Of a DNA stretch of 64,000 nucleotides, positions 27,389-30,710 are shown piece after piece. How positions within the stretch are numbered: position 1 is the first letter of the stretch; every line of letters begins with the position of its first letter. The position numbers and the translations under genes were made by a program. Origin of the DNA: Ferrithrix thermotolerans DSM 19514 (GTDB taxonomy: Bacteria; Actinomycetota; Acidimicrobiia; Acidimicrobiales; CAIXPF01); assembly GCA_945906305.1 (NCBI GenBank), contig CAMDQT010000007.1, forward strand, positions 1 to 64,000, written 5' to 3'. A model generated the notes under the pieces. That model was given only the letters and a program-made list of their open reading frames with translations. It did no database searches and was not told the origin of the DNA.

Positions 27389-27479
27389 AGGGCCCTGAAA
27401 CATTTAGCGGCAGTTCGTGAGGCGGCTTTTCGTCATCTGCGGTAGCTTGCCCGAGTTCATTCGACCGTTGGGGATGGAA

Positions 27480-28361
27480 ATGTCTGATTTCAAAGTCTTG
27501 GTTCCTCTCGATGGGGATGAGGTGTCCGAAGACGCCCTCTTGGTGTTGCCGATGCTTCGCACCATCGGGTTCTCGCAGCTGGTCTTCATCAGCGTGGACA
27601 GCCCCAAGAACCTCAAGACGAGGACGGCCAAGGCCTTTGCTGATTACCTTGCCGTCCACTCGGGCAATGCCGAAGCTGCCGGTTGGCAAGTCGAGACCGT
27701 GATCGCCGAAGGCGATGCGGCGGACATCATCCTGGCGGCCGCGGCGCGGACCGATGTCGACCTGATCCTGCTCGCCACCCATGGGCGGACCGGCCTAGAG
27801 CGCATCCGTCTGGGGAGCCTCTCGGACAAGCTCATCAAGAACGCCTTGTGTCCCCGCCTGGTGGTCGGTCCGAACGTCGACATCGACCTGGAGACCTACT
27901 CGCTCAAGCGGATCCTGGTCCCGGTGGACGGCTCGGCACTGTCCGAGATGTCGCTGCCAATCGCTCGACACCTGGCCAACCTCGTTGGAGCCGAGGTCGA
28001 TCTGATCCAAGCCGTTTCCATCAGCTCGGGCATGGTCGCAGGCGATACCGGCGCTGGCGTTGACCTGATGCCCGGGGTACTCGATTCGGCGAACTCCTAC
28101 CTCTCCCGGATCGCCGACGGGTTCCCAGGCGTGAAGGTCAACCCCAATGTGGTCGTCGGCAATGCCGCCGATAGCATCGTCGATCACCTTGATGCACACC
28201 CCGTCGATCTGGTGGTCATCGCCTCCCGTGGCCGCACCGGCCTTACCCGCTTTGCTTTGAGCAGTGTCACCGAGCGCATCTTGCAAGGCCCCGATCCGGT
28301 CTTGGTTTTTGAAGAGGGTGAAGACCGCAGTCGCCTGTTCAGCGCGGCTCGTTCGGCATAA
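27480..28361 (+). CDS. Tandem universal stress protein (two Usp domains)
   Basis: A 293-residue protein with two Usp domains, about residues 1-135 and 142-285. Each begins with a KVLVPLDG or RILVPVDGSALSE strand-loop and ends with an ATP-binding loop: ATHGRTGLERIRLGS in the first and ASRGRTGLTRFALSS in the second. In the second, Ser replaces the Gly of the GS pair, so nucleotide binding may differ. Its stop is 24 bases before the Cache-channel gene on the same strand, making cotranscription likely. ATG at 27480 gives a standard Usp N-terminus; ATG at 27474 is possible. Confidence 0.9.
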   Translation: MSDFKVLVPLDGDEVSEDALLVLPMLRTIGFSQLVFISVDSPKNLKTRTAKAFADYLAVHSGNAEAAGWQVETVIAEGDAADIILAAAARTDVDLILLATHGRTGLERIRLGSLSDKLIKNALCPRLVVGPNVDIDLETYSLKRILVPVDGSALSEMSLPIARHLANLVGAEVDLIQAVSISSGMVAGDTGAGVDLMPGVLDSANSYLSRIADGFPGVKVNPNVVVGNAADSIVDHLDAHPVDLVVIASRGRTGLTRFALSSVTERILQGPDPVLVFEEGEDRSRLFSAARSA

Positions 28362-28385: not shown

Positions 28386-30710
28386 ATGCTCAAGCGTCGT
28401 TTTAGAGCGCGCCACCTCGTGGCTTTCGGGACCATCGCCGTGGGGCTGTTGTTGGGATTGCTGGTCAGCGAACTCGTCAAGGCACGTGGCGTCCACGATC
28501 GTGCCCACGTCGAGTACGTCCAGGAAAAAGCACGGCGCCAAGCACAGGAGTCGGCTGCCGCCGTCGAAAAGCTGCTCGCTGATATGCAAAATACCGGCAA
28601 TCGACTCCTCGAACAGCTGAATAGCGGCGAGGTCACTTCGGCGACGGCGGCAAAAACCACTTCGGCCCTTCTGGCGTCCCAACCGCACCTTTGGGGGGTC
28701 GGCGTCACCTACGACCGCCGCTTGCCAACAGCTCCAGCCGATCCGAACCACTACGCCACCCGCCCCGGCGGCATCATCAAGCCGGGCAAGATCACCTACA
28801 ACTACGAAGATCCGGCGGAGTCGCGCGGTCATTGGTGGCGGCAGGCGATGGAGGTTGGCAACACCTGGGTCCCGCCCTACCTCGGTGGCACGACCAAGAA
28901 GATGGTCGCCGTGTACACCGGCCGGTTCTATGGCCCGGAAGGCCCAGCAGGAGGCGGTCCGGCTGGCGCGATCATCATCTCGATGCAGCTCGACACCCTG
29001 AATCGCAGCGTCGGTTGGTCCGAGCTCGGCTCATCTGGCTACGGGTTCGTATTCTCGCGCCGGGGTTCCTACCCGAGTCATCCCTCGGCCAATGAGAACG
29101 GCGGATTCGTTGCCCATCCGAACAAGGCCTATTGGCGCGGGGATGGCGTTCCGACCTTTGCCGAAGTCGTCGCCGCGAATGGAAACAGCGCCGCCGTCGC
29201 CATGCTCGATGGGCCTGACCTGGACCCTAAGGCGGTGTTCGACTACCACGATGAGATCACCAACGAGCCTGCCTGGCTGTTCCCCGCCCGTCTCCCGACG
29301 GCGGACTGGATGCTGGGGTTCGTGGCTATCAAGAGAATGCTGATCGCAGGCGATCGAGCTCACTTTCGCTTCAACGTTGGAATTTTCGTCGCCGCCTTGC
29401 TCATGGTGGCGTGTTTGATAGTCGGCGCGGCGCTGTTTGCACCGTCCGAATTGGTGAGGGTGTGGGCGATCGTCATGGTCATCACAATGGTGCCAGCCGT
29501 GACCATCGGTGGTACCTGGAGGATGCAAAAGATAGCAACAGCTGAGAGTCCGCTCGGCGATGTTGTTCACAAGCTCCGCGGCAATGAGGTCGAGTTGCTA
29601 ACCGGTTTGGAACGACTGAGCGAGTCGATTGACGATTACTACAAATATGTGTCGACCGTATCGCTGGACCTCAAGCCGCACTCGGTGCTGGCAGGCGTGT
29701 TCTTGGATGCGATCGAACAAGGCGGGACCAGTGCTGAGCCTTGGCGGCTGTCAGGTACGATCTGGCAACGGTACGCTAACGGGGTTCCGGATGGTGAGAC
29801 ACCGGGGTTCGATTTCCCCGACGCCGTCGAAGAGCCGCAGTTCGAACCGTTCTATGACGTGCTAGACGGCGATACCAGAACTATCGCCTGGAGCTTTATC
29901 GCGGTGGTCCAGCCGGAGCGAGATCTCCGGTCTTACCCCTTCGACAAACTGACCTTACAGCTGCGAATGGTGCATCGGGATGCGTCCAAACCCATCGTGT
30001 TGATCCCCGATGTGGCGGAGTACAACTTGATTGTCCCCATCGCTCGACCAGGCCTGTCTCCGAAAATCTCGCCGCATGAATTTGAAATATCCGGAAGCGA
30101 TTTCGGGTTCTCCACGACGAGCGTCAACTCGACCATGGGCATCCCGAATTTCGCCCGGCAGACCAACTTTCCCGAGCTCACCTACACCGTGCACATGAAT
30201 CGCAAATTCGTCGAACCGTTTCTGTCCCAGATGTTCCCGGTGTTCGTGATCATGTTGCTGTTGTTCGTGGTGCACCTGATGGCCACCAGACCGGCGGAAT
30301 TCTCCTTGGTGATGTCACCGCGGAAGATGCCGAAAGGGATGTCGGCCCGCTTGTGGGATGGGGAACACCCGACCGCTGGAGCCTGGGATGAGGAGAGCGC
30401 GTCGGAACCGGCCGGAGGCAACTACTACGTGCAGGCGACGCTGACCTCGGTGCTCGCGTTGATGTTCGTGACGATCCTCGCCCACAACAACCTGCGCGGG
30501 ACCCTCGAAGCGAACGACATTGTCTACCTCGAAAACGGCTACTTCGTGCTGTACGTGGCGCTGCTGATGGTGGCGGTCAACTCATTGCTGTTCGGCACCG
30601 GCCACGGGGGGCGATTCGTGCATTGGCGCAAGAACCTGCTGCCAGAGGTGCTGTACTGGCCGTTGATCCTCACGATGGTCGCGGGGTCGACGCTGCTTAC
30701 TTTCTACTGA
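28386..30710 (+). CDS. Putative Cache-sensor/pentameric ligand-gated ion channel fusion
   Basis: A 774-residue membrane protein. Seen: TM1 at 11-30; a dCache-sized extracytoplasmic domain at about 31-328 with GYGFVFSRRGSYPSHP at 219-233; TM2 329-351 and TM3 357-377; a second extracytoplasmic domain 380-606; then four C-terminal helices at about 608-632, 680-703, 714-738 and 750-774. The second domain carries YPFD at 517-520, the Pro-loop motif of pentameric ligand-gated channels, and about 90 residues later FPELTYTVHMNRKF enters the first channel helix with the conserved Pro (QMFPVF). Spacing and topology fit Cys-loop-type receptors. The 633-680 cytoplasmic loop is longer than usual. I infer a ligand- or Cache-gated ion channel; homology needs profile search. 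DUF4436-like membrane proteins, also with YPFD, are the alternative. Confidence 0.7.
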   Translation: MLKRRFRARHLVAFGTIAVGLLLGLLVSELVKARGVHDRAHVEYVQEKARRQAQESAAAVEKLLADMQNTGNRLLEQLNSGEVTSATAAKTTSALLASQPHLWGVGVTYDRRLPTAPADPNHYATRPGGIIKPGKITYNYEDPAESRGHWWRQAMEVGNTWVPPYLGGTTKKMVAVYTGRFYGPEGPAGGGPAGAIIISMQLDTLNRSVGWSELGSSGYGFVFSRRGSYPSHPSANENGGFVAHPNKAYWRGDGVPTFAEVVAANGNSAAVAMLDGPDLDPKAVFDYHDEITNEPAWLFPARLPTADWMLGFVAIKRMLIAGDRAHFRFNVGIFVAALLMVACLIVGAALFAPSELVRVWAIVMVITMVPAVTIGGTWRMQKIATAESPLGDVVHKLRGNEVELLTGLERLSESIDDYYKYVSTVSLDLKPHSVLAGVFLDAIEQGGTSAEPWRLSGTIWQRYANGVPDGETPGFDFPDAVEEPQFEPFYDVLDGDTRTIAWSFIAVVQPERDLRSYPFDKLTLQLRMVHRDASKPIVLIPDVAEYNLIVPIARPGLSPKISPHEFEISGSDFGFSTTSVNSTMGIPNFARQTNFPELTYTVHMNRKFVEPFLSQMFPVFVIMLLLFVVHLMATRPAEFSLVMSPRKMPKGMSARLWDGEHPTAGAWDEESASEPAGGNYYVQATLTSVLALMFVTILAHNNLRGTLEANDIVYLENGYFVLYVALLMVAVNSLLFGTGHGGRFVHWRKNLLPEVLYWPLILTMVAGSTLLTFY

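Follow-up and report, generated by a model that had tools for sequence, protein, structure and literature searches.

A predicted Cache-pLGIC fusion protein with departures in the pore region from a freshwater actinobacterium

Introduction

In the part of Tasneem et al. (2004; PMC549065) that is drawn on here, pentameric ligand-gated ion channel (pLGIC) proteins whose N-terminal domains are of the MCP-N and Cache types are described from Methanosarcina, Cytophaga and Microbulbifer, a chemosensing role is proposed for these bacterial and archaeal MCP-N/Cache pLGICs, and stand-alone PBP-II genes are reported to adjoin bacterial pLGIC genes. The residues that mark the superfamily were listed by Jaiteh (2016; PMC4795631); among them, the M1 Pro occurs in 77% of members, the M2-M3 Pro (88%) and a basic M2 0' residue (79%) are not strictly required, and the pre-M1 Arg forms a salt bridge to the Asp of the Pro-loop. 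An experimental study of a Cache-pLGIC was not found in the literature searched, in which subscription papers were thinly covered. Here, a gene encoding a putative protein of this kind, located in a window of 64,000 nucleotides (the whole stretch of DNA that was analysed) from a freshwater actinobacterium, was compared with these systems.

Profiles and reference sequences

The open reading frame, the homology of the Cache and channel parts with the coupling residues, the selection on the gene and the strict conservation of M2 were all computed here from the sequences. A family profile (A4) was built from the C-terminal halves of six family members, and a reference profile was built from four bacterial pLGICs. 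One reference protein (L048) passed the PF02931 cut-off and the reference profile found solved pLGICs at E 7e-17, so the reference set was considered sound. Some bacterial pLGICs of this set lie below the PF02931 and PF02932 cut-offs. Reversed profiles and DUF4436 (PF14494) were used as controls in hhalign, for which the percentages below are match probabilities. The residue list of Jaiteh (2016; PMC4795631) was used for the inspection of individual positions. In the tree of the family, where the Vibrio homologue (L047) forms a long branch and the forks are open, the Cache domain may either have been gained once or have been lost in L009 and L046.

Results

The gene and its surroundings

The frame at 28386-30710 on the plus strand is complete and present as a single copy in the genome, and orthologues of its product (69% identity) are encoded by two further species of the genus (L002 and L003). 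The gene order is kept in both, with a universal stress protein (Usp) gene upstream and thiolase and OB/zinc-ribbon genes downstream. The dN/dS ratio of the gene was about 0.2, and dN was low (~0.21) against dS (~0.97) between the window and L002, which indicates purifying selection on the fusion protein. The frame is thus a real gene. All features of the locus are collected in Table 1.

Table 1. Positions of the features of the Cache-pLGIC locus in the window
Feature	Coordinates	Strand	Remarks
Tandem universal stress protein (Usp) gene	27417..28361	+	PF00582 E 1e-35, two domains
Cache-pLGIC fusion gene (predicted)	28386..30710	+	774 aa, ATG start, stop 30708-30710
TM1, N-terminal anchor of Cache domain	28407..28481	+	Residues about 8-32, hydropathy
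Extracytoplasmic dCache domain	28482..29369	+	Residues 33-328; PF02743 46-235 sub-threshold; BLASTP to Vibrio Cache part
TM2-TM3, two extra helices between Cache and channel ECD	29373..29519	+	About 330-352 and 355-378, hydropathy
pLGIC-type extracellular beta domain (ECD)	29682..30206	+	Residues 433-607; hhalign to pLGIC profile
Pro-loop [F/Y]PxD motif, YPFD	29934..29945	+	Residues 517-520
M1	30213..30287	+	Residues about 610-634; P618 = kink position
M1-M2 loop, predicted cytoplasmic	30288..30413	+	42 residues, 635-676, alignment
M2, predicted pore-lining helix	30420..30497	+	Residues about 679-704
M3	30519..30596	+	Residues about 712-737, hydropathy
M4, end of protein	30645..30707	+	Residues about 754-774; W758-P759 conserved

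The distribution of the fusion protein is sparse. Among the relatives searched, its presence was confined to three members of this genus, one of which is the window's own genome, and a wider search of the class gave only one more convincing match, in a genome (G361) whose protein has no Cache domain. For the class-wide matches at E 0.006-0.1, no pLGIC-like protein was present in the plus strand frames of L010, L012 and L017, and no match was obtained in the phage records and viral contigs searched. A further candidate relative (G714/L045) was rejected, the frame inspected being a membrane protein that lacks a Pro-loop motif.

In each of the three genus members, the tandem Usp gene lies next to the channel gene. 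The two genes lie on the same strand, separated by 24 bases in the window and by 33 bases in L002 and L003, and they are therefore likely to be co-transcribed, with the Usp gene as operon partner of the fusion gene. The Usp protein contains a nucleotide-site-like stretch, ATHGRTGLERIRLGS.

Layout of the protein

Seven TM helices were recognised by hydropathy, one at the N-terminus (TM1, 8-36), a pair within residues 325-380 and four closing the protein (M1 607-640, M2 680-703, M3 711-740 and M4 755-773). The Cache domain, flanked by TM1 and TM2 (from about 325), is placed outside the cytoplasm by the same analysis. The anatomy that the original prediction had proposed (a Cache-sized domain, an extra helix pair, a second domain and a closing four-helix block) thus agrees with the frame and the hydropathy, and the YPFD motif at 517-520 indeed stands about 90 residues before M1. 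Weak matches of DUF4131 at the TM2-TM3 region (E 0.016-0.12) were taken as chance. AlphaFold2 models, for which the input was the window sequence and the two orthologues, gave mean pLDDT values of 37 (C-terminal half) and 32 (full length) and are uninformative because they drew on only three sequences.

The Cache domain

The full protein matched PF02743 (dCache_1) at residues 46-235 with E 3.5e-5, and the N-terminal part alone with E 4.2e-6. The dCache assignment of the original prediction held in so far as this match was obtained and recurs in both genus orthologues; the score stayed below the cut-off (23.9 against 45 bits). In the Vibrio homologue, the E value for PF02743 was 6.8e-9 and PF22673 was above cut-off, and the Cache parts of the window and Vibrio proteins are homologous to each other (BLASTP E 2e-15; hhalign 97.1%). 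A single-sequence PDB search with P0001 gave weak Cache matches to chemoreceptors and one chance match, and nothing else.

An Asp (D173 in PctA/PctD) is the motif residue of Cache sensors for amino acids and amines (dCache_1AA/dCache_1AM). In a pairwise alignment with PctB, which is weak (E 0.38), S199 stands at the place of this Asp, and from that substitution it is improbable that the ligand is an amino acid or amine in the canonical binding mode. The same S199 could also fit a channel carrying a degenerate, ligand-free Cache domain that only shapes assembly, with protons or an ECD ligand doing the gating, and L009 and L046, the nearest relatives beyond the genus, have no Cache domain. We regard such a channel as very unlikely, because the Cache part is conserved like the ECD (72% and 70% invariant columns in the orthologues, respectively) and under similar selection, which argues that it has a function; moreover, a missing amino-acid motif still permits other ligands.

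Homology of the C-terminal half to pLGICs

Residues about 433-774 matched no Pfam family, and PF02931 and PF02932, on which the original prediction had counted, were absent at E up to 10. By profile comparison, the family profile and that of the reference pLGICs aligned with a probability of 97.3% (E 2.6e-11 in a single comparison); the alignment covers 267 columns and is collinear from the ECD to M3. The value was 95.8% for the window sequence alone, 96.3% for the genus alignment, 94.9% for L009 with L046 and 87.9% for the Vibrio protein alone, and the controls ranged from 0.1 to 5.6%. Against the PDB, all of the 60 matches listed, out of 78 up to E 10, were GLIC or GLIC chimeras (best E 0.011), a result that is weak alone but one-sided. 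GLIC, the proton-gated channel of Gloeobacter, thus supplied the best-scoring solved structures among the matches listed, aligned from the ECD to M3. On these profile comparisons, assignment of the C-terminal half to the pLGIC (Pro-loop receptor) superfamily, as one of its divergent members, is well supported, and so is the joining of a dCache domain to a pLGIC-type module in an actinobacterium, as originally predicted.

The C-terminal half might instead come from an unrelated membrane family, DUF4436 or another, its likeness to pLGICs being one of a short motif and a TM pattern. The absence of a PF02931/PF02932 match would agree with this, and DUF4436 proteins too carry [WY]P[FW]D before TM helices. 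However, DUF4436 gave no Pfam match and reached only 5.6% (family) or about 1% (window sequence) in hhalign, as against 96-97% for pLGICs and less than 1% for reversed profiles, and the similarity runs from the ECD to M3, beyond the motif. The DUF4436 profile was hence not the better match, and an unrelated family, already disfavoured by these values, is highly improbable.

In the actinobacterial DUF4436 proteins (L024-L042), the [WY]P[FW]D motif is accompanied by an Arg that precedes the C-terminal block's first TM helix, and a Pro-rich loop, RN-x-x-PG-x-PP, is conserved behind the second helix. The bacterial pLGIC profile aligned to them at 71.5% (E 3.6e-5, one comparison) over 221 columns, and a profile search of the PDB with these proteins gave no support for pLGIC kinship. 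They may be three-helix proteins distantly related to pLGICs.

Superfamily residues, M2 and the M1-M2 loop

The [F/Y]PxD Pro-loop, which belongs to beta6-beta7, is present as YPFD in the window protein and as YPLD in both orthologues. The pre-M1 Arg is R606, the salt-bridge partner of D520, and none of P518, D520 and R606 varies among the six diverse family members. The beta9 aromatic residue (W, F or Y) is F566 here and W in L009, L046 and L047, an assignment that depends on the alignment. At the M1 Pro position, the window protein has Pro (P618), as do L009, L046 and L047; both genus orthologues have Gln. The M2-M3 Pro is absent, its place being taken by R704, an Arg invariant in the family. 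The M2 0' residue is not basic (Y681 by the GLIC register), and this register is uncertain owing to the long M1-M2 loop.

A manual alignment with GLIC gave N at -2', Q at 2', T at 6', L at 9', F at 13' and I at 16', a pore-like pattern with polar residues at 2' and 6' and hydrophobic residues at 9', 13' and 16'; F 13' is invariant in the six family members. M2 is 100% conserved among the three orthologues and lies in their longest invariant run (674-704). When the invariant columns were shuffled 20,000 times, a run of this length (31) arose in 12 cases, a figure that serves only as a guide because shuffling ignores the local clustering of conservation.

The M1-M2 loop has 42 residues here against about 10 in L009, L046, L047 and the reference pLGICs; its excess over the nearest relatives beyond the genus is about 36 residues. 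The original prediction had not mentioned this wide spacing of M1 and M2. It is long in all three orthologues, evolves faster than M2, yet is constrained (dN 0.29, dS 1.8), and by the predicted topology lies in the cytoplasm at the mouth of the pore, where it could be a small intracellular domain.

Several of these features speak against a channel: the lack of a Pfam pLGIC match, Arg for the M2-M3 Pro, no basic M2 0', the M1 Pro absent in the orthologues, and a 42-residue loop at the expected cytoplasmic mouth. The protein might descend from pLGICs and no longer be a channel, acting as a sensor or scaffold that relays the Cache signal via the M1-M2 loop, perhaps to the Usp. The length and moderate constraint of this loop, the loss of the M2-M3 and M1 Pro residues, and the Usp neighbour conserved in the three genus members would suit such a role. 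We nevertheless consider it unlikely, as M2 is completely conserved in the three orthologues with its pore-like pattern kept, and in the relatives without Cache the M1-M2 loop is short and M2 can still be recognised as related.

Relatives outside the genus

Relatives without a Cache domain include a 370-aa protein (L009) from an acidimicrobial genome within the same order and a protein of an Acaryochloris plasmid (WP_012166950.1); relatives with a Cache domain occur on Vibrio plasmids. An acidimicrobial genome (G268, L043), likewise from this order, carries on the minus strand a 458-aa open frame for an ordinary-looking pLGIC without Cache, with YPLD, LPPT in the M2-M3 loop and four helices, which matches PF02931 below the cut-off (E 7.7e-5). 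Two Streptomyces plasmids (L051 and L052) encode pLGIC-like proteins that fall below the PF02931 cut-off or miss it.

On the Vibrio plasmid, three overlapping frames (L047:463-4714) encode an SBP_bac_3 binding protein, a 207-aa protein and the Cache-pLGIC homologue. The homologue's gene overlaps the 207-aa frame, which has no known family, by four bases, and that frame overlaps the SBP_bac_3 gene. The SBP_bac_3 neighbour parallels the PBP-II neighbours in the cited part of Tasneem et al. (PMC549065) and gives independent evidence for the Vibrio homologue as a receptor of this type.

Discussion

The protein is best explained as a real, divergent Cache-pLGIC, and we think it probable from the sequence comparisons that it forms a homopentameric channel and that a ligand of the Cache domain modulates its opening. 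The channel, for cations or for anions, would probably be built from five subunits around M2. If the Cache domain binds a ligand on the extracytoplasmic side, both the TM2-TM3 pair and the pLGIC ECD would move, and this movement would be relayed to M2 by the interface of the Pro-loop with the pre-M1 Arg. The pentamer, ion conduction, ligand gating, the modulator role of the Cache domain and any link to the Usp are what we infer.

A more far-reaching proposal would make these proteins a pLGIC subfamily gated by a membrane-anchored Cache domain with three helices of its own, in which the M1-M2 loop is a new intracellular domain coupling ion flux to a cytoplasmic partner, for example the Usp; we hold it to be distinctly unlikely. 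If the predicted Cache-pLGIC conducts, the commonest external sensor fold of bacteria would be tied directly to a channel of the neurotransmitter-receptor superfamily, and a testable system would be available for the gating of a pLGIC by an added sensor. The protein also shows that some pLGICs lie too far from the Pfam models to be matched by them, so that the numbers in published inventories are probably too low.

Comparison with known systems

The original prediction was largely right about the probable identity of the protein as a Cache-pLGIC and wrong about its novelty: it had taken the architecture to be undescribed or rare, and Cache-pLGICs are found in Tasneem et al. (2004; PMC549065), in the part drawn on here, and a Vibrio plasmid encodes one with the same layout. 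Fusions of this kind have been on record since 2004; the new element is the departures around the pore. As variant features, the protein has an additional TM pair, no M2-M3 Pro and an enlarged M1-M2 loop.

DeCLIC (PMC9897478, PMC12664993) is a bacterial pLGIC that, like the window protein, has a large N-terminal sensory region; this region consists of two calcium-binding jelly-roll lobes and not of a Cache domain, and the described architecture has no extra TM helices. GLIC, unlike the window protein, has no N-terminal sensor, keeps the M2-M3 Pro and has a short M1-M2 loop.

The protein of the Vibrio sp. THAF191d plasmid (L047:2636-4714, 692 aa) has the same order of TM, dCache, two TM, ECD and four TM, with both halves homologous, and the same extra TM pair is visible in its sequence. 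It differs from the window protein in its short M1-M2 loop and in its SBP_bac_3 neighbourhood, as against Usp in the window, and identity in the channel half is 22%.

The proteins of Tasneem et al. (2004; PMC549065), as far as the cited part describes them, likewise have a Cache-type sensor N-terminal to a Pro-loop ECD and a four-TM module, and their PBP-II neighbours resemble the SBP_bac_3 gene beside the Vibrio homologue. Compared with them by description, the window subfamily escapes PF02931 and PF02932 and lacks the M2-M3 Pro, adds a TM pair between the Cache domain and the ECD, and, in the window genus, has the 42-residue M1-M2 loop.
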